Source of the DNA: Bryobacteraceae bacterium
Lineage (GTDB): Bacteria > Acidobacteriota > Terriglobia > Bryobacterales > Bryobacteraceae
Length of the DNA: 64,000 nt
Direction: 5' to 3'
Assembly (NCBI GenBank): GCA_023384675.1
Contig: JAHDVK010000027.1
Coordinates: 1-64,000, forward strand
A program made the position numbers and the translations under genes. The notes beneath the pieces were generated by a model, which saw only the letters and a program-made list of their open reading frames with translations, had not been told where the DNA came from and made no database searches. Below are positions 47,576 to 55,766 of the stretch, in pieces; position 1 is the first letter of the stretch; every line of letters starts with the position of its first letter.

Positions 47576-48556
47576 ATGAGTACAAACGGAAACGGGGTGA
47601 AGAAGGCTATCCTTCTGCGCCCGCGAGGTTTTTGCGCGGGCGTGGTGCGCGCGATCGACGTGGTGAAGATCGCCCTCGAGCTTTACGGCGCTCCGATTTA
47701 CGTTCGCAAGGAGATTGTCCACAACCGGCACGTGGTGGACGATCTTCGCGCCCACGGCGCGATTTTTGTCAATGAGCTGAACGAGGTGCCGGATGGCGCG
47801 CGCGCGATCTTTTCGGCCCACGGAGTATCCCCGGCCGTCCGGGAGGAGGCCACGCGCCGGAATCTGCAGGTGGTGGACGCCACGTGCCCGCTCGTGACCA
47901 AGGTTCACTTCGAGGCAGTCCGATTTGCGCGAGAAGGCTACACGATTCTGCTGATCGGCCACCGCGACCACGAAGAGATGGAAGGCACCTTCGGCGAGGC
48001 CCCTCAAAACACCATCATTGTGGAGACGGAGACCGAGGCCGAGCAGGTGCAAGTGCCAAACCCCGATAAGGTCTGCTACCTGACGCAGACCACGCTCTCT
48101 CTGGACGAAACGCGCAGCATCGTGGAGATTCTGGAGAGGCGTTTCCCGAAGATCGCCGGGCCGAAATCGCAGGACATCTGCTACGCGACCGAGAACCGGC
48201 AGATGGCCGTAAAAGCCGTGGCGCCGCTGTGCCAGTTGCTGCTGGTGGTGGGTTCGCAGAACTCGTCGAATTCGAAGCGGCTGGTGGAAGTGTGCCAGAG
48301 GTCCGGGGTGCCGGCGTATTTGATCGACGACTGCAGTTTTTTCCAGGACGTCTGGTTTGAGGGCGTGGACACGGTGTCGGTGACGGCCGGCGCATCCGCT
48401 CCGGAAAACCTGGTGCTCGACGTCATCGAAGCGCTGCGCGAACGGGGTTACGCCACGGTCGAGGAGATGGACATCGTCGATGAGGATGTCCGGTTCAACC
48501 TGCCGCCCGAATTGCAGGGCGGGGCGGCGAAGCTCACTACCATCGCAATCCGATGA
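47576..48556 (+). CDS. ispH: 4-hydroxy-3-methylbut-2-enyl diphosphate reductase
   Basis: A 326-residue iron-sulfur enzyme, the last step of the MEP pathway, giving IPP and DMAPP. The three cluster cysteines are Cys20 (RPRGFCAGVVRAI), Cys104 (VVDATCPLVTKVH) and Cys202 (ICYATENRQ). Also visible are GHRDHEEMEGTFGEAP and SQNSSNSKRL. AAAGG supports the start. Its stop overlaps the ATG of the cyclase homologue by four bases, linking precursor supply to the terpenoid genes downstream. Confidence 0.97.
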   Translation: MSTNGNGVKKAILLRPRGFCAGVVRAIDVVKIALELYGAPIYVRKEIVHNRHVVDDLRAHGAIFVNELNEVPDGARAIFSAHGVSPAVREEATRRNLQVVDATCPLVTKVHFEAVRFAREGYTILLIGHRDHEEMEGTFGEAPQNTIIVETETEAEQVQVPNPDKVCYLTQTTLSLDETRSIVEILERRFPKIAGPKSQDICYATENRQMAVKAVAPLCQLLLVVGSQNSSNSKRLVEVCQRSGVPAYLIDDCSFFQDVWFEGVDTVSVTAGASAPENLVLDVIEALRERGYATVEEMDIVDEDVRFNLPPELQGGAAKLTTIAIR

Positions 48557-50232
48557 GCGAAGCCGGCGCCGGCGGCGATTCCCCTTCCACCGCGATTTAT
48601 CTTGCCGCCGCGGCCCTCGTGCGTTTTGAATCACCGGGAGGTGGCTGGGCCGGATCCATTGGTGCGCATGCGCCGATCGAGGCCCTGGCGGCTCTGTGCA
48701 GGTTGCCTCGGATCGACTCTGGGGCCCTGGATCAGGCTGCGCAGGCCGTGCTGGGGCGGCTGGAACCGCGGGGGTTTTTTGCGCTCTTTCCCGGCGGACC
48801 CGTGGATACGGGCGCTTCGGTGCTGGGCTATGCGCTGCTCAAGCTTGCCGGTCTTTCCGCAACGGCGGAGCCGATGGAGCGCCTCCGAGGCCACATCCTC
48901 GAAGCAGGCGGAATCCAAGCCGCCGATCCCTACACCCGGCTGATTCTGGCTCTGTTCCAGCTCTATCCTGGGGAACACCTCCCCGCATTGCCGGCGCAGC
49001 GCGAGTGGCGGCGTCTGCCGGCCTGGGCGCGTGCGCAACTTGCTCCGCTGAGCCATCTGCACGCCCGGCACATTGCCGCGGCACAGCCGCGCCGGACGCC
49101 GCCGGATTTCACGCTCGCCGAACTGGTGCGCGCCGACCGGCCCTTCTCTGATCCTCGCCCCGGCGTCGAGGGCGGCCTGCGGAATACCTTCTCGAAGCTG
49201 GCCGGCTGGCTGGCGGCGCCAGGTAAGCAGGATACGCCACCGACCCTGCCCTCGGACACGGCAGCGCTGGCGCCCACACCCGGCCTCTTGCTGACGCGGT
49301 TGGCGATGGGGCAGCCCGTCCCGGACACATGTCTGCCGTCGGTTCTGCCCAATCGGGATACGGCGCTGGCCCTGCTCGCCCACCCTTCGCCGCCACCGAA
49401 GGCCGCGGCCTGGCTTCGAACCCGAACGCTGCCCGGCGCCGGCTGGCCCCGGCAGTTCGCCGCCGAGTTGCACTCGCACACGGAGGAAACCGCGCTCGCC
49501 TTGCAGGCGCTGCGCCGCGCGCAGCCGGATGAGGATCCGCCTGCCGGGGCCCTTGCCTGGCTTCGCCAACTGCAGGGCCGCGATGGCGGTTGGGCCGCGT
49601 GCGACACGGGTCTGGGCATCCCCCTGCGGCCCGACCTGCCTTTTCCTGGGCCTTTCGCGGCGGCCGATCCGGCGTGTCCGGCGCTGACGGGGATGGCCCT
49701 CGAGGCGTTGACGGCCTGCGGCGTTCCACAAGACGATGCGGCGGTGCAGCGCGGAGTGGAGTTCCTCGTTCGGACACAACTGATGCGCGATGGTTCCTGG
49801 ACGTCGCGCTGGGGCGTCTATTCCATTCACGGAACTTGCTTCGCTCTGCGCGGGCTGCGCGCGGCGGGCTTCGACGATCACGACGCCGTCGTCTTGCGCG
49901 CCGGGGAGTGGCTGCGCTCGTGCCAGAACGCCGATGGCGGATGGGGCGAATCGCCCGCTTCGGTCGAGGCGGGCGAGTTTATCGAGGCCCCCTCGCATCC
50001 GGCCCAGACCGCGTGGGCCTTGCTCGGCCTGGTCGCGGGCGGAGATGCGGCGAGCGAGAGCGTCCGCCGGGGGCTCGATTTCCTGTTGGGTTCGCAGGGA
50101 CCGGATGGGGCCTGGGAGTCGCCCTCGACGTCGCTGATGCACGTGCCGCCTGCGCTGTTTCTGAACAACCCGCTGGACGCCGTCGTCTTTCCGATGCTGG
50201 CGATCCGGGCGGTGCGCGAGGCGCGGTCATGA
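48553..50232 (+). CDS. Squalene-hopene-cyclase-family protein lacking the DXDD motif
   Basis: A 559-residue (alpha/alpha)6 double-barrel protein of the prenyltransferase/squalene-cyclase family, about 70-120 residues shorter than typical cyclases. QW-type repeats are seen: QGRDGGWAACD (Q341), QNADGGWGES (Q458), QGPDGAWESP (Q515) and FESPGGGWAGS near the N-terminus. The acid motif DxDDTA, which protonates squalene, has H-T-E-E-T-A (309-314) in its place within SHTEETALALQAL. It may be a non-catalytic paralogue, a cyclase using Glu, or act on another polyprenoid. It is coupled to ispH upstream and hpnA downstream by four-base overlaps. Confidence 0.8.
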   Translation: MSEAGAGGDSPSTAIYLAAAALVRFESPGGGWAGSIGAHAPIEALAALCRLPRIDSGALDQAAQAVLGRLEPRGFFALFPGGPVDTGASVLGYALLKLAGLSATAEPMERLRGHILEAGGIQAADPYTRLILALFQLYPGEHLPALPAQREWRRLPAWARAQLAPLSHLHARHIAAAQPRRTPPDFTLAELVRADRPFSDPRPGVEGGLRNTFSKLAGWLAAPGKQDTPPTLPSDTAALAPTPGLLLTRLAMGQPVPDTCLPSVLPNRDTALALLAHPSPPPKAAAWLRTRTLPGAGWPRQFAAELHSHTEETALALQALRRAQPDEDPPAGALAWLRQLQGRDGGWAACDTGLGIPLRPDLPFPGPFAAADPACPALTGMALEALTACGVPQDDAAVQRGVEFLVRTQLMRDGSWTSRWGVYSIHGTCFALRGLRAAGFDDHDAVVLRAGEWLRSCQNADGGWGESPASVEAGEFIEAPSHPAQTAWALLGLVAGGDAASESVRRGLDFLLGSQGPDGAWESPSTSLMHVPPALFLNNPLDAVVFPMLAIRAVREARS

Positions 50233-51203
50233 AACCGGTTCTGGTGACGGGCGCATCGGGTTTTCTGGGATGGCATGTGGCGCGCGTGGTGCTGGGGCAC
50301 GGTCTGCCGGTGCGGGCGCTGGCGCGCAGGCCGGGGTCGGTGGGCGATCCGGATCTCGAGGAGGTCGCCGGCGACCTGCGCGACCCGGAATCGCTCGATC
50401 GCGCCGTGGCCGGCTGCCAGGCCGTGTTTCATGTGGCGGCGGATTACCGGCTCTGGGCGCGCGAGCCCCAGGAGTTGTATCGTTCAAATGTGGATGGCAC
50501 GCGCCACCTGCTGGAGGCTGCCCGACGTGCCGGCGTCGAGCGTGTGGTGTACACATCCACGGTCGGTTGCATCGGCTTCGTCCCCGGCGGCGTGGGCGAT
50601 GAGGAGACGCCGGTGTCTCTGAAGGACATGACGGGCGCCTACAAGCGCTCGAAATTCCTGGCTGAGCGGGAAGCGCTGCGCTTCGCGCGCGAGGGTTTTC
50701 CGGTGGTGGCGGTGAATCCCACTGCGCCGGTGGGCAGCCGCGATATCAAACCGACGCCGACGGGCCAGACCATCGTCGACTTTCTTTCCGGGCGGATGCC
50801 CGCGTACGTGGATACGGGCCTGAACGTGGTGGACGCGCGGGAATGCGCCGAGGGCCACTGGCTCGCGTATTTGCACGGCCGGTCCGGCGAGCGGTACATC
50901 CTCGGCAGTGAGAATCTGACGTTGCGCGAAATTTTGGAGCAATTGTCGGAGATCAGCGGAAAGCCCGCGCCGCGAGTGCGTCTGCCCTGGGTCGCCGCGC
51001 TGGTCGCGGGACTGTTTTCGACGGCCGGTGCGCGGCTGACGGGACGCCCGCCGCGCGTGCCGCTGGATGCGGTCCGGATGGCGCGCAAGAAGATGTGGGT
51101 GTCGCACGCAAAGGCCGCGCGCGAGTTGCAGTACCGGCCTTCGCCGGCCCGGACGGGCCTGCGCAACGCAGTGGAATGGTTCCAAGAACATGGCTACTGT
51201 TGA
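50229..51203 (+). CDS. hpnA: Hopanoid-associated sugar epimerase HpnA
   Basis: A 324-residue extended-SDR protein. VLVTGASGFLGWHVARVVL binds NAD(P); YTSTVGCIGF and GAYKRSKFLAEREAL hold the catalytic Ser/Thr, Tyr and Lys; VAVNPTAPVGSRDIKPTPTG is characteristic of HpnA rather than generic dihydroflavonol reductases. Its exact reaction is not established in the literature known to me. ATGA overlap with the cyclase homologue fixes the start; a longer frame upstream is antisense-like noise within the cyclase gene. Confidence 0.9.
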   Translation: MKPVLVTGASGFLGWHVARVVLGHGLPVRALARRPGSVGDPDLEEVAGDLRDPESLDRAVAGCQAVFHVAADYRLWAREPQELYRSNVDGTRHLLEAARRAGVERVVYTSTVGCIGFVPGGVGDEETPVSLKDMTGAYKRSKFLAEREALRFAREGFPVVAVNPTAPVGSRDIKPTPTGQTIVDFLSGRMPAYVDTGLNVVDARECAEGHWLAYLHGRSGERYILGSENLTLREILEQLSEISGKPAPRVRLPWVAALVAGLFSTAGARLTGRPPRVPLDAVRMARKKMWVSHAKAARELQYRPSPARTGLRNAVEWFQEHGYC

Positions 51204-51909
51204 ACCCGCCATCGCCGCTGTCGCCGCCGAACCCCGTGAGCTCGCGGGGCTGGTGGCGCACGCCACTTCGGTGACCGCGCTGCGGTGGCCGGTGCGCTAT
51301 GCGCTGGAGGCGATGATCGGCGGGCAGCACTGGCTTTTGCTGGCGCACGGGGCGGGAGCATCGCTGGCGGCGCAGGCTGCGCAGACCGCCGTGGATCGCG
51401 GTCCGCTCCGGGCGCTGATCAGCGTGGGATTGTGTGGGGGTCTGGACCCGGAACTGAAGACGGGAGACATTGTCGCTGCCACCGAAGTCCGGCTGCCGGC
51501 GCCGAACGTGACACGGTACGCGGTCTCAGCACCGGCGGGCGGGCCGCGCCCCCGGGTGTCGGGGCCAGTGGTGTGTTCACCCCGTGTCGTTTGCTCGGCC
51601 GAGGAAAAGCGGGCCCTGCACTCGACTGGGGCGGTTGCTGTGGAGATGGAATCGGCGGGCGTCGCCGAAGTGGCGGTCCACGCCGGAGTGCCGTTTTATT
51701 GCATCAAGGGCGTCAGCGATCCAGCTCAGGAGACGCTTCCGCTCGATTTCAACCGGTACCGGGATGTGAAAGGCAATTTTCTGTCAGGCCGGATTGCCCT
51801 TGCGGCCCTCTTGCGTCCTCATCGCCTGCCCGCGCTCGCGCGACTGTTGCGCGCGAGCCGTCAAACATCCATAAAATTGGGAGAGTTCCTTGCCAACTGC
51901 AAGTTCTGA
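51190..51909 (+). CDS. hpnG: Hopanoid nucleosidase/phosphorylase HpnG
   Basis: A 239-residue nucleoside-phosphorylase-fold protein. ISVGLCGGLDPELKTGDIVAATEV and VAVEMESAGVAEVAVHAGVPFYCIKGVSDPA match the MTA/SAH nucleosidase group. In hopanoid producers HpnG releases adenine from adenosylhopane to give ribosylhopane or its phosphate. The ATG at 51190 overlaps hpnA by 14 bases. HpnH, which makes adenosylhopane, is not in this run of genes. Confidence 0.88.
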   Translation: MATVEPAIAAVAAEPRELAGLVAHATSVTALRWPVRYALEAMIGGQHWLLLAHGAGASLAAQAAQTAVDRGPLRALISVGLCGGLDPELKTGDIVAATEVRLPAPNVTRYAVSAPAGGPRPRVSGPVVCSPRVVCSAEEKRALHSTGAVAVEMESAGVAEVAVHAGVPFYCIKGVSDPAQETLPLDFNRYRDVKGNFLSGRIALAALLRPHRLPALARLLRASRQTSIKLGEFLANCKF

Positions 51910-52987
51910 TTTCGCTTCCGCGAACGGCACCATGCGCGCCGCGGTTTACACCGGCCATGGCCTGGTGGATATTCAGGAGATCCCTATTCCCGTCATTGGG
52001 CCGGGCGAATTGTTGATCCGGGTGGAAGCGTGCGGAATCTGTCACACCGACCTTAAGAAGATTGAGTACGACCTGCTGCCCGCGCCGCGCGTGTACGGCC
52101 ACGAAACAGCCGGCGTGGTCGCTGCTGTGGGTGAGGGAGTCACGGCATTTCAGCCGGGCGACCGCGTGGTGGCCTTTCACCATATCCCGTGCAGGGACTG
52201 CTTCTACTGCGAACGAAAACTCTACGCGCAGTGCAAAATTTACAAAAAAGTGGGCATCACGGCTGGTTTTGAGCCTGCCGGAGGCGGTTTTTCGCAGTAT
52301 GTGCGCGTGATGGACTGGATCGTGCGCGATGGCGTGCTCAAGATCCCGGACGGGGTGAGCTTCGAAGCGGCGAGCTTCGTGGAGCCGGTCAACACCTGTC
52401 ACAAGGCGGCGGTGGCGATGGATCCGCGGCCGGGCGACGTGGTGCTGATCCAGGGTCAAGGGCCAATCGGCTTGATTTTCACGATGCTGGTTCATCGTGC
52501 CGGGGCCACGGTCATCGCGACCGACACGATCCCGGAACGGCTGGCGCTCGCGCGCCGCTTCGGGGCCGCGGAGGTGTTGGACCCGCGCGTCTCGGATGTA
52601 GCGGCAGCCTGTAAGTCTTACACGCTGGGCCGGGGAGCGGATCAGATATTCGTGGCGGCTTCCGCGCCCGGCATTGTCGCCGAGGCCGTGGCGGCCTCCC
52701 GGCCCGGAGCGAAACTGCTCTTATTTGCACAAACATCGAACACGGAAAGAATCGAGCTGTCGGGCGCGGACATCTGCAAGGATGAACGCTCGCTGATCGG
52801 CGTGTATAGCGCCTCGGTGGACCTGCAGGCCGAGTCTGCCAGATTGGTGTTTAGCGGGGATTTGCCGGTGGGAGAGCTGGTCTCTCACCTCTTACCGCTC
52901 AATGAGATCCGGGTGGGCATCGATCTGGCGTTGCATCCGGACGGCAAATCGTTGAAAATAATGGTTCAGCCACAGAGGTTCTCTTAA
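51890..52987 (+). CDS. Zinc-dependent MDR alcohol dehydrogenase (first of two in the hpn cluster)
   Basis: A 365-residue medium-chain dehydrogenase. Catalytic-zinc ligands are Cys48 (EACGICHTD) and His71-Glu72 (VYGHETAG); the structural zinc lobe is CRDCFYCERKLYAQC. The NAD(P) site is VVLIQGQGPIGLIFTMLVHRAG. The start is taken as TTG at 51890, with GGGAG seven bases upstream; ATG 51932 would drop 14 residues. It overlaps hpnG by 20 bases and is followed at once by a second, different MDR gene. An oxidoreductase step in hopanoid side-chain making is inferred from context. Confidence 0.88.
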   Translation: MPTASSDFASANGTMRAAVYTGHGLVDIQEIPIPVIGPGELLIRVEACGICHTDLKKIEYDLLPAPRVYGHETAGVVAAVGEGVTAFQPGDRVVAFHHIPCRDCFYCERKLYAQCKIYKKVGITAGFEPAGGGFSQYVRVMDWIVRDGVLKIPDGVSFEAASFVEPVNTCHKAAVAMDPRPGDVVLIQGQGPIGLIFTMLVHRAGATVIATDTIPERLALARRFGAAEVLDPRVSDVAAACKSYTLGRGADQIFVAASAPGIVAEAVAASRPGAKLLLFAQTSNTERIELSGADICKDERSLIGVYSASVDLQAESARLVFSGDLPVGELVSHLLPLNEIRVGIDLALHPDGKSLKIMVQPQRFS

Positions 52988-54028
52988 GTGAATACCGAAA
53001 TGCTGGCCGCGGTGCTTTACGGCAAGGAACATGTGCGCGTGGAGCGGGTGGCCGTCCCTGAAATCGACAAGGGCGACGTGCTGGTGCGTGTTCGAGTCGC
53101 GCTTACTTGCGGCACGGACGTGAAGGTGTTCCGGCGCGGCTACCACGCCCGCATGATCGTTCCCCCGGCTTTGTTCGGCCACGAACTGGCCGGCGACATC
53201 GTGGCGGTTGGCAAGTACGTCGAAGATTTCCACCCCGGGATGCGGATCGTCGCCGCCAACTCCGCGCCCTGCGGCCACTGCTTCTACTGCCGCAAAGGCC
53301 AGGAGAACCTCTGCGAAGATCTGCTGTTCAACAACGGCGCGTACGCCGAGTACATCCGTATCCCCTCGCGCATCGTTCAGCGCAATATGTACGAGATCCC
53401 GGCGCATCTGTCCTACCAGGACGCGGCGCTCTCGGAACCCCTGGCTTGCGTGCTGAAGGGGTTGGAGGATACGAACGTGCGGCCCGGCGACAACGTGGTG
53501 GTCATCGGGCAGGGCCCCATCGGGTTGATGTTCGTGAAACTGGCCAAGGTGTACGGAGCCCGCGTGATCGCGCTGGGCCGGCGCACGTCCCAACTGGACC
53601 GCGCCTTGTCCATGGGCGCCGACGATGCATTGTTGAACACGGGCGGCGAGGATGTCCAGCGCCAGGTGCGCGCCCTGACCAACGGGTACGGCGCCGATAT
53701 CGTCATCGAGGCGGTGGGCCAGCCCGAAACGTGGGAACTTTCCGTGAAACTGGTCCGCCGGGGCGGCACCGTGAATTTCTTCGGCGGCTGCCCGAACGAC
53801 ACGCGCGTCAACCTGGAAACCTCGCTGCTCCACTATTCCGAGATCTCCTGCGTGGCGAGCTTCCACCACACGCCTGCTTACATTCAAAAAGCTCTCGATA
53901 TCGTCACCAAAGGCCACATCACCGCGCGCGACTTTGTCAATAAACAGGAGCCTCTGGACAATCTGCTCGACGTCATGAAGCATCTCATGAGCCACAACGG
54001 GCACATGAAGACGGCTATCATTCCGTAA
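52988..54028 (+). CDS. Zinc-dependent MDR dehydrogenase (second of two in the hpn cluster)
   Basis: A 346-residue dehydrogenase related to sorbitol/threonine dehydrogenases. Zinc ligands are Cys41 (ALTCGTDVKVFRRG) and His65-Glu66 (LFGHELAGD), with the structural lobe CGHCFYCRKGQENLC. The nucleotide site is VVVIGQGPIGLMFVKLAKVYG. GTG start directly abuts the stop of the first MDR gene, and AGAGG lies upstream. The two proteins share fold but little close identity by eye, so they may act on different groups or as partners. hpnC follows after two bases. Confidence 0.88.
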   Translation: MNTEMLAAVLYGKEHVRVERVAVPEIDKGDVLVRVRVALTCGTDVKVFRRGYHARMIVPPALFGHELAGDIVAVGKYVEDFHPGMRIVAANSAPCGHCFYCRKGQENLCEDLLFNNGAYAEYIRIPSRIVQRNMYEIPAHLSYQDAALSEPLACVLKGLEDTNVRPGDNVVVIGQGPIGLMFVKLAKVYGARVIALGRRTSQLDRALSMGADDALLNTGGEDVQRQVRALTNGYGADIVIEAVGQPETWELSVKLVRRGGTVNFFGGCPNDTRVNLETSLLHYSEISCVASFHHTPAYIQKALDIVTKGHITARDFVNKQEPLDNLLDVMKHLMSHNGHMKTAIIP

Positions 54029-54030
54029 AG

Positions 54031-54942
54031 GTGCCGCTCGAACCCGTCCAGTTTCTCGCCAATACCGAAGCCATGAAGAGGGCCTGGCCGGAAGACCAGG
54101 CCCTTTCTTACACCCGCTGGCTGGCTACCCACCATTACGAAAATTTTCACGTTGTCAGCTTCCTGCTGCCGAAACATCTGCATCAGGATTTCTACAATGT
54201 CTACGCGTTTTGCCGCTGGTCGGACGATTTGGGCGACGAGATCGGCGATCCGGCGGAGAGCCTGCGCCTGCTGGCCTGGTGGCGCGGGTTGCTGCACCAG
54301 TTGTTCGACGGTCAATCCGCCGCGCATCCCGTGTTTGTCGCCCTGCGCGGCACGATCGAGCGGCACGGACTGCCGCGGGAGCCGTTCGACAACCTGATCA
54401 CCGCCTTCGAGCAGGACCAGCGCGTTACCCGCTACCCGGGCTGGGACGAGGTGCTCGACTATTGCGCCTATTCCGCGAATCCGGTCGGCCGGCTGGTGCT
54501 CTACCTCGGCGGCTATCGCGACGAGGAGCGCCAGCGGCTCTCCGACGCCACCTGCACCGCGCTGCAGCTCGCCAATTTCTGGCAGGATGTGACTGTGGAT
54601 CTGGGAAAGGACAGGATTTACCTGCCGCAGCATCTGTTCGCGCGCCATGGCTACACCGAACAGGATCTCCTCGCGCGGCGCTTCACGCCCGCGTTCAGGC
54701 AGGTCATGGTGGAAGCCGTGGACAAGGCGCAGCAGTTGTTCGAGCAGGGCCTCCCGCTTGCCCGCATGCTCGACCGGCGGCTGGCGCTCGACATCGATCT
54801 CTTCAGCCGGGGCGGCATGAAGGTACTCGAGAAAATCCGCGCTCAGGATTACAACGTGCTGCGGTCGCGGCCCGCCATTTCGAAGCTGGAACGCGCCACG
54901 CTGCTGCTGCGCAGCCTGGTGCGGGTGGCGCTTGCGGCATGA
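54031..54942 (+). CDS. hpnC: Squalene-pathway synthase HpnC (hydroxysqualene synthase)
   Basis: A 303-residue head-to-head prenyl synthase. HYENFHVVSFLLPKHLHQDFYNVYAFCRWSDDLGDE contains the first Asp-rich motif, and LANFWQDVTVDLGKDRIYLP the second. HpnC converts presqualene diphosphate, made by HpnD, to hydroxysqualene. Start is GTG two bases after the second MDR gene; an ATG 14 codons inside (54073) is an alternative. The stop overlaps hpnD (ATGA). Confidence 0.93.
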   Translation: MPLEPVQFLANTEAMKRAWPEDQALSYTRWLATHHYENFHVVSFLLPKHLHQDFYNVYAFCRWSDDLGDEIGDPAESLRLLAWWRGLLHQLFDGQSAAHPVFVALRGTIERHGLPREPFDNLITAFEQDQRVTRYPGWDEVLDYCAYSANPVGRLVLYLGGYRDEERQRLSDATCTALQLANFWQDVTVDLGKDRIYLPQHLFARHGYTEQDLLARRFTPAFRQVMVEAVDKAQQLFEQGLPLARMLDRRLALDIDLFSRGGMKVLEKIRAQDYNVLRSRPAISKLERATLLLRSLVRVALAA

Positions 54943-55766
54943 TGGACACCGCCGCGAGCTACGCGCACTGTGAGGCCATCGCCCGCGCCCGCGCCCGCAA
55001 TTTTTACTACTCGTTCCTGCTGCTGCCGCGCCACAAGCGGCTGGCGATGTGCGCCGTGTACGCGTTCATGCGGCGCTGTGACGACCTCAGCGATGGCGCG
55101 GACGCCTCGCCGCAAGCCCTCGAGCAATGGCGCGGCCACCTCGACCGCGCGCTCGCCGGGGACACCCCGCCGGACCCGCTCTGGCCCGCTTTCACCGACA
55201 CCGCCCGCCGCTTCCGCATTCCGCACAGGCTCTTCCACGAGATGATCGACGGCGTGGCCAGCGATTTCGGCCGGTCGCAGATCGAAACCTTCGACGACCT
55301 TTACCGCTACTGTTATCTCGTGGCCAGTGTCGTCGGCCTCACGATTATTCACATCTTCGAGTTCAGCGACCCCCGCGCGGGCATGCTTGCGGAGAAATGC
55401 GGCATCGCCTTTCAACTGACCAACATCCTGCGCGATGTCCGCGAAGACCACGAGCAAAACCGCGTCTATCTGCCGCGCGAGGAGCGTGCGCACTTCGGCG
55501 TCGAGCGGCTCGATCGAATGACGCCCGAATTGCAGGAATTGCTGCGCTTCCAGGGACGCCGCGCCCGCCAGTACTACGACGCTTCGCGTGCCCTGCTTCC
55601 GCTGGTTCACCGCGACTCCCGGCCTGCCCTCTGGGCGTTGATGGAGATCTACCGCCGCCTGCTGGAACGGATCGAGCAGGCGGACTACGACGTCCTCTCG
55701 CGCCGCGTGCGGCTTTCCACCGCGGAAAAAATCTGGGTCCTGGCGCAGGCGCGTTTTCGGGCGTAG
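54939..55766 (+). CDS. hpnD: Presqualene diphosphate synthase HpnD
   Basis: A 275-residue prenyl synthase joining two farnesyl diphosphates. RARNFYYSFLLLPRHKRLAMCAVYAFMRRCDDLSDG and FQLTNILRDVREDHEQNRVYLP carry the two catalytic Asp-rich motifs. ATGA overlap with hpnC fixes the start; ATG 54942 is one codon later. HpnE, the third enzyme giving squalene, is not adjacent; the next gene is a STAS protein. Confidence 0.94.
   Translation: MMDTAASYAHCEAIARARARNFYYSFLLLPRHKRLAMCAVYAFMRRCDDLSDGADASPQALEQWRGHLDRALAGDTPPDPLWPAFTDTARRFRIPHRLFHEMIDGVASDFGRSQIETFDDLYRYCYLVASVVGLTIIHIFEFSDPRAGMLAEKCGIAFQLTNILRDVREDHEQNRVYLPREERAHFGVERLDRMTPELQELLRFQGRRARQYYDASRALLPLVHRDSRPALWALMEIYRRLLERIEQADYDVLSRRVRLSTAEKIWVLAQARFRA

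Follow-up and report, generated by a model that had tools for sequence, protein, structure and literature searches.

An altered squalene-hopene-cyclase homologue, probably a retained pseudoenzyme, in the hopanoid operon of a Bryobacteraceae bacterium

In a 64,000-nucleotide stretch of a Bryobacteraceae contig (the window), a gene designated shcA* lies between ispH and hpnA and encodes a homologue of squalene-hopene cyclase (SHC) in which the DXDD acid motif is replaced by HTEE. Judging from sequence comparisons and a predicted structure, the protein is probably a pseudoenzyme, no longer a hopene synthase, that has been retained as a non-catalytic part of hopanoid synthesis, perhaps with a partner or lipid-binding role. 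Its catalytic residues have been lost, a paralogue with an intact motif is present (its activity being judged by the motif only), and purifying selection acts among the relatives. The protein is a variant of the known SHC family and no new kind of system.

The altered gene and the second cyclase

The gene order in the window is ispH-shcA*-hpnA-hpnG-ADH-ADH-hpnC-hpnD (Table 1). The reading frame of shcA* runs over 559 codons without an internal stop codon; it shares 4 nt with each neighbour, its ATG start with the ispH stop (ATGA) and its TGA with the ATG of hpnA. Both the C (PF13243) and N (PF13249) SQHop_cyclase domains are present, and the TIGR01507 equivalog score is 223.5 bits, under the cut-off of 431.1. 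The GC3 value of 0.78 is that of a normal gene (0.80-0.83 in four neighbour genes), and the G+C at codon positions 1 and 2 is 0.75 and 0.58 versus 0.65-0.72 and 0.39-0.51 in these neighbours. The start of the hpnG-like gene was set from its reading frame.

Table 1. Features of the shcA* locus in the window
Feature	Position	Strand	Evidence
ispH (4-hydroxy-3-methylbut-2-enyl diphosphate reductase)	47576..48556	+	NF002189 457.4 bits, cut-off 444
shcA*, altered SHC homologue, 559 aa	48553..50232	+	PF13243 2.5e-56, PF13249 8.3e-30; TIGR01507; SHC fold (predicted)
Codons of H309-T310-E311-E312 at the DXDD place (D374-D377, A. acidocaldarius SHC)	49477..49488	+	alignments
QW-type motif QLQGRDGGW	49567..49593	+	motif scan
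QW-type motif QLMRDGSW	49777..49800	+	motif scan
QW-type motif QNADGGW, within the stretch common to all eight altered proteins	49924..49944	+	motif scan, alignment
QW-type motif QGPDGAW	50095..50115	+	motif scan
hpnA, hopanoid-associated sugar epimerase	50229..51203	+	TIGR03466 452.7 bits, cut-off 367.65
hpnG-like phosphorylase	51190..51909	+	TIGR03468 139.2 bits, below cut-off 187.1; scanned as ORF 51067-51909
Zinc-type alcohol dehydrogenase 1 of the cluster	51890..52987	+	reading frame, profile scan
Zinc-type alcohol dehydrogenase 2 of the cluster	52988..54028	+	reading frame, profile scan
hpnC, squalene synthase HpnC	54031..54942	+	TIGR03464 342.9 bits, cut-off 250.45
hpnD-like presqualene diphosphate synthase	54939..55766	+	TIGR03465 255.8 bits, below cut-off 278.6

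The initial annotation had described an SHC homologue between ispH and hpnA that reads HTEE in place of DXDD, keeps several QW repeats, and is shorter than normal cyclases, and all of this was borne out. By phmmer (1gsz, E 6.3e-61), H309-T310-E311-E312 aligns on D374-V375-D376-D377 of the Alicyclobacillus acidocaldarius SHC, and an alignment with 39 canonical family proteins confirmed the placement. Four QW motifs (Q-x2-5-G-x-W, at residues 339, 409, 458, and 515) remain, where three canonical controls have 4, 5, and 6. The length of 559 residues compares with 629-675 in 37 of the 39 canonical relatives (whose start codons were picked by rule), and anchor columns showed that the difference results from internal deletions. 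The same annotation had named an intact DXDD elsewhere in the chain as a point against it; a search of the whole 559 residues found no D-x-DD.

The normal DXDD cyclase that it had proposed to look for in the rest of the genome does exist. A search of the window genome (5.7 Mb, 97.4% complete) gave a single further SHC-like gene, which lies on contig C48 and encodes a protein of 660 residues with DIDDTA and a TIGR01507 score of 626.1 bits. Hereafter, SHC-A denotes the SHC gene adjoining ispH, and SHC-B denotes the canonical SHC elsewhere in a genome. The SHC-B gene on C48 lies outside the hopanoid operon, near cytochrome bd subunit-like genes (neighbours named by eye). In the window genome, hpnE lies on contig C21, and contig C11 has the best hpnH-like match; an hpnE above the cut-off and an hpnH-like match were found in 11 of 11 genomes. 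A canonical SHC-B with DIDDTA is present in all eight genomes that have an altered SHC-A, where, as its motif suggests, it presumably does the hopene chemistry. SHC-B was also found in genomes of genus g47 and in G015 (the altered copies belong to g1, the genus of the window, and to g44), and a single SHC copy was found in G012.

Active site and predicted structure

The aromatic cavity residues of SHC steer the cation. For the cavity, I used a list of 39 positions taken to line that of the A. acidocaldarius SHC; 33 of these are invariant, that is, at least 95% identical across the 39 canonical family proteins. The window protein keeps 9 of these 33 residues versus 94 of 170 other invariant residues (9/33 vs 94/146 on ungapped columns, Fisher p 1.5e-4). 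For the altered proteins of the relatives described below, the contrast is less marked (Fisher p 0.0089-0.067): those of g44 keep 7-9 of the 33 (p 0.0089-0.067), and those of G011 and G082 keep 4 (p 0.022-0.025). All 33 are present in four canonical controls, but these are among the 39 proteins that define the columns. The window protein has lost the equivalents of F365, W312, Y420, D436, D447, H451, Y495, F601, F605, Y609, and Y612 (that of H451 is an arginine in this family), it retains those of W169 and W489, and the stretch ahead of its motif is partly deleted. In all six full-length altered proteins, the equivalents of F365, W312, Y420, Y609, and Y612 are replaced and the D436/H437 pair is gone; the g44 proteins retain D374 and D447 and have lost W489.

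The middle aspartate of the SHC DXDD motif is described as protonating the terminal double bond (PMC9290348). In shcA*, this aspartate is replaced by glutamate, its flanks are His and Glu, and the cation-steering aromatics are gone, so that hopene is very unlikely still to be made. E311 and E312 could still serve as acids, a point counted against the pseudoenzyme reading.

An AF2 model of shcA* based on 43 sequences has a mean pLDDT of 74.7 and a pTM of 0.77, and its best structural match is 2sqc_A (526 residues, 2.8 A, Z 39.2); the SHC fold is thus kept in the model. The cavity is not confidently formed. The segments with pLDDT below 50 are 1-7, 200-245, 258-262, 294-306, 352-371, and 531-535; by the alignments, 294-306 ends at the motif position, 352-371 is the D436/H437 loop, and 531-535 is the F601-F605 segment. 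The canonical control L170, modelled with the same 43 sequences, reached a pLDDT of 89.4 and a pTM of 0.90, with only 1-6 and 266-268 below 50. Part of the low confidence may come from the window protein being the only altered row in its alignment.

Altered copies in relatives, their selection, and their history

Is the change common in the family? Of 140 family genomes, 138 gave an ispH match, and in 52 genomes ispH and an SHC-like gene could be read in one locus on one strand. The motif was read in these 52 copies only, which were picked as top matches to two proteins of the window and are no random sample: 44 have D-x-DD (D-I/V/M-DD) and eight are altered. Genus g1 was represented by four genomes, all matching the query; three of these have an altered copy (the window, G011, and G082), and the fourth (G116) was left out of the SHC-A judgement because its ispH match ends early on its contig. 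The other five altered copies belong to g44 (G044, G099, G126, G143, and G154). All eight are open, with 559 codons in the window, 590-600 in g44, and 350 in G011 and G082, and each starts with an ATG overlapping the ispH stop. In g44, hpnA begins 34-40 nt past the shcA* stop, with no overlap. In G011 and G082, the 350-residue protein, which has lost about 200 residues together with the motif region, follows ispH and is followed by hpnH.

The motif reads D-A-E-T in four g44 copies and D-V-E-T in one; for G011 and G082, where the alignment is doubtful, it is given as S-V/A-Q-D. HTEE was seen only in the window among the 52 copies read. The D376 to E replacement is common to all six full-length altered proteins and is the sole motif change that they share; a single HTEE signature for all altered copies was rejected on this ground. 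The initial annotation had held that a conserved change across relatives would mark a new subfamily. Altered relatives do exist, but they have no one conserved motif. It had also expected that orthologues with DXDD at this site would point to an artefact; such orthologues are the rule (44 of 52 syntenic copies), and they indicate an evolutionary loss instead.

When 257 genomes of the order were searched with a profile of the eight altered proteins, the g44 proteins scored 980-1000 bits, the window protein 631, and the next match 423, with all others lower. G011 (best E 5.9e-97) and G082 (4.4e-93) score inside the range of canonical genes, and therefore the profile could miss further shortened copies. 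D-x-DD is present in 80 of 80 named SHC loci from GTDB contigs, which by label cover several acidobacterial groups and a few others. All eight altered proteins retain the C-terminal QW half, namely VLR[AG]GEW[LI]RS-x-QNADGGWG and the following stretch. The 350-residue congeners suggest that this half may carry what is retained. With the motif region and about 200 residues missing from G011 and G082, a function common to all eight can rest neither on the full fold nor on a lipid cavity, which counts against the pseudoenzyme reading.

The altered SHC-A genes of the relatives are clearly under relaxed but purifying selection. In within-genus pairs (NG86), omega is 0.238 for G011/G082 and 0.188-0.313 for six g44 pairs; the SHC-B genes of the same species pairs gave 0.112 and 0.035-0.065. 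Altered SHC-A thus exceeds SHC-B in omega by a factor of 2 to 6.5, as does a protein under weaker constraint, which counts against the pseudoenzyme reading. The bootstrap 95% limits of the five altered pairs tested span 0.15 to 0.38, with upper limits of 0.24-0.38, and in these five pairs differences are more frequent at third than at first codon positions, by a factor of 2 to 2.5. Over the five g44 species, 257 of 598 positions are invariant, and at 118 of these the residue is not that of most canonical SHC-A; within one stretch of 25 residues, 88% of the positions are invariant and 16% are like canonical SHC-A. These new conserved motifs do not look like passive decay. The pairs that include the window are saturated (omega 0.42-0.46, dS >1.5) and say little on its own branch; I infer that its copy is selected as those of its relatives are.

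In a tree of six operon proteins (the row of G188 had two of the six), g44 grouped with g47 (99/99) and g1 with G015 (81/83), and an AU test against a g1 plus g44 grouping gave p 0.011. SHC-B forms one clade (100), in which g1 is sister to (G015,(g44,g47)) (99, 99). In an SHC-A tree without the g1 rows, g44 joins the canonical SHC-A of g47 (99). In protein trees with both altered groups, the altered g1 and g44 proteins join each other (97, 99), and a meeting of long branches was flagged for the tree with 97. The window row on its own was left without a supported position (end branch 8.17), and a tree of ispH only, with 21 of 30 chosen rows after a motif filter had removed nine, did not resolve the genera. 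B_G116 and X_G017 (fragments) and two duplicate G015 rows were left out, as was X_G051 from the tree without g1, from that of the window row on its own, and from that joining both altered groups at 99.

The replacements W312R, D376E, F601V, D45L, and S168A are identical in the altered g1 and g44 proteins. Among invariant columns changed in both, 9 of 26 share the same residue, and 169 of 2000 shuffles were as high; among all columns changed in both, the share is 36 of 120, within the control range of 8/65 to 21/61. The shared replacements are therefore not clearly beyond chance. Since the g47 copies read and G015 retain a canonical SHC-A, two losses are the simplest account; two separate losses in g1 and g44, after SHC-B was present, are likely, and a single origin is possible.

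Possible roles, alternatives, and known systems

It is proposed that shcA* descends in place from the operon-borne SHC-A of the family, and that a second canonical SHC, SHC-B, was already present in the lineage when the operon copy changed. The operon copy has lost its proton-donating aspartate and most of its cavity, so that it would no longer make hopene, and its protein sequence would have been preserved by selection after the loss. Most likely, the protein has retained the SHC fold and acts non-catalytically in hopanoid synthesis. It might be a subunit that partners SHC-B or the HpnC/D/E-HpnA/G/H line, or it might bind squalene or hopene at the membrane. The partner or lipid-binding role is a conjecture. 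A more specific version can be offered only tentatively: shcA* may be a dedicated non-catalytic SHC subunit, evolved perhaps twice, that controls, chaperones, or feeds SHC-B, or passes squalene or diploptene between HpnC/D/E, SHC-B, and HpnH. I know of no precedent for a non-catalytic cyclase subunit in triterpene cyclisation. NgBR is a pseudoenzyme subunit that works with a cis-prenyltransferase, and shcA* may be compared with it as a paralogue without catalytic residues kept beside a presumably active one. To my knowledge, squalene transfer and cyclase regulation in hopanoid synthesis are poorly known, and shcA*, if it has a role, would be an accessory component of that synthesis. Because eight altered copies occur naturally, at stages of 590-600, 559, and 350 residues, beside intact paralogues in the same genomes, the role can be tested directly.

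The main rival explanation is a dull one and is rather unlikely: SHC-B made SHC-A redundant, and shcA* is a decaying, functionless relic whose frame is kept by translational coupling to the downstream hpnA or hpnH. In the window, the overlap of 4 nt with ispH and again with hpnA is consistent with this, as are the raised omega relative to SHC-B, the roughly 200 residues gone in G011 and G082, and the G+C at codon positions 1 and 2 above that of four neighbours, which relaxed constraint predicts; the saturation of the window's pairs also puts selection there beyond measurement. However, coupling would preserve a frame and leave the amino acids free to change, and yet omega is 0.19-0.31 in the relatives with bootstrap limits far below 1. 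The excess of third-position differences and the new motifs conserved across five g44 species also argue against a relic, and in g44 the gap before hpnA leaves no overlap to be preserved. That errors in sequencing or assembly have turned a normal SHC into the window gene is hardly conceivable. The rarity of the motif speaks for it and nothing else does; the gene is open with a normal GC3, and altered copies with open frames occupy this locus in seven further genomes of two genera, for which reason this reading was rejected.

Could the protein still be a class II cyclase? The glutamate (E311 or its g44 equivalent) might protonate another polyprenoid, or a mono- or bicyclic product might be formed, and this is improbable. 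Since D376 is replaced by E in all six full-length altered proteins, the proton-donor site still has an acid, and D374 and D447 are retained in g44. D377C variants of the A. acidocaldarius SHC are described as still cyclising squalene, with monocyclic 3-deoxyachilleol as product and strongly decreased activity (PMC6127371); since they keep some chemistry, shcA* may have some residual chemistry. Against this stand the replaced aromatics and the missing D436/H437 pair of all six proteins, the loss of W489 in g44 and of Y495 in the window, the partial deletion ahead of the window motif, and the congeners without a recognisable motif region. Moreover, PDB titles list a D303E drimenyl diphosphate synthase bound to its substrate FPP, which hints that glutamate is a poor acid in that class. 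Glutamate chemistry on another polyprenoid is thus disfavoured. Among the three readings that the initial annotation had offered, the non-catalytic one fits best, and the glutamate-based one loses weight because the window protein also lacks the equivalents of F365, W312, Y420, D447, Y609, and Y612 and two congeners have no motif region.

Compared with SHC (HpnF/Shc; TIGR01507; A. acidocaldarius SHC, PDB 1sqc/2sqc), shcA* has the two-domain alpha-alpha toroid fold in its model, four QW motifs, a hopanoid gene neighbourhood, and clear homology; it differs in the absence of DXDD, the replacement of most cavity residues, the score under the equivalog cut-off, and the internal deletions. The related SHC-A of G144, G015, and G012 lie at the same ispH-hpnA locus and are 640-653 residues long; outside the eight altered copies, the ispH-linked copies of all 44 genomes read keep D-I/V/M-DD. 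Hopanoid genes of acidobacteria have already been described, and so have genomes that carry two shc genes, with a second copy in Ca. Solibacter usitatus and Granulicella pectinivorans, as here; the passages of that paper on these shc genes make no mention of a lost acid motif (PMC5462960). In an open-access library, as far as titles and abstract beginnings go and with most subscription journals outside, no bacterial SHC homologue without DXDD was found. Hopanoid producers are recognised genetically by their shc gene (PMC5462960). Annotation at the Pfam level would count shcA* as a hopene cyclase, and an SHC homologue inside a hopanoid operon need not be the enzyme. The 350-residue proteins of G011 and G082 are similar in length to the single-domain class II cyclases (MstE, and also PDB 8paj and 8pak; ~340-350 residues), unlike the window protein, whose model spans both SHC domains (526 residues aligned).

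Neighbouring genes in the hopanoid clusters

Two tandem zinc-type alcohol dehydrogenases lie in the window cluster, and the second ranks among the most conserved proteins compared. Both are present in every related cluster read as far as the alcohol dehydrogenase region, 15 of the 16 other loci; the exception (L235) is a locus that ends early.

Each of the nine other genomes searched has one hpnH-like match, with which the operon hpnH of the congeners G011 and G082 shares just 43-46% identity. The usual hpnH seems to have been replaced by a divergent hpnH in these two species.

Cyclase genes

The G+C content of the window's shcA*, the altered cyclase homologue lacking DXDD, is 0.75 at codon position 1 and 0.58 at position 2. 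These values exceed those of the four neighbouring genes measured, while GC3 is similar. In the relative G050, the SHC match spans two overlapping frames, a frameshift that is either real or assembly-derived. The neighbours of SHC-B, the canonical DIDDTA cyclase of the window genome, resemble cytochrome bd oxidase subunits by eye, not hopanoid genes.

Coordinates of the features
Feature	Location	Context
Alcohol dehydrogenases	window 51890-54028	between hpnG and hpnC
hpnH, G011	L036:1954-3063	between shcA* and hpnA
hpnH, G082	L037:337-1446	between shcA* and hpnA
shcA*	window 48553-50232	
SHC, G050	C104:4576-6458	
SHC-B locus, G000	L040:3331-5829	contig C48
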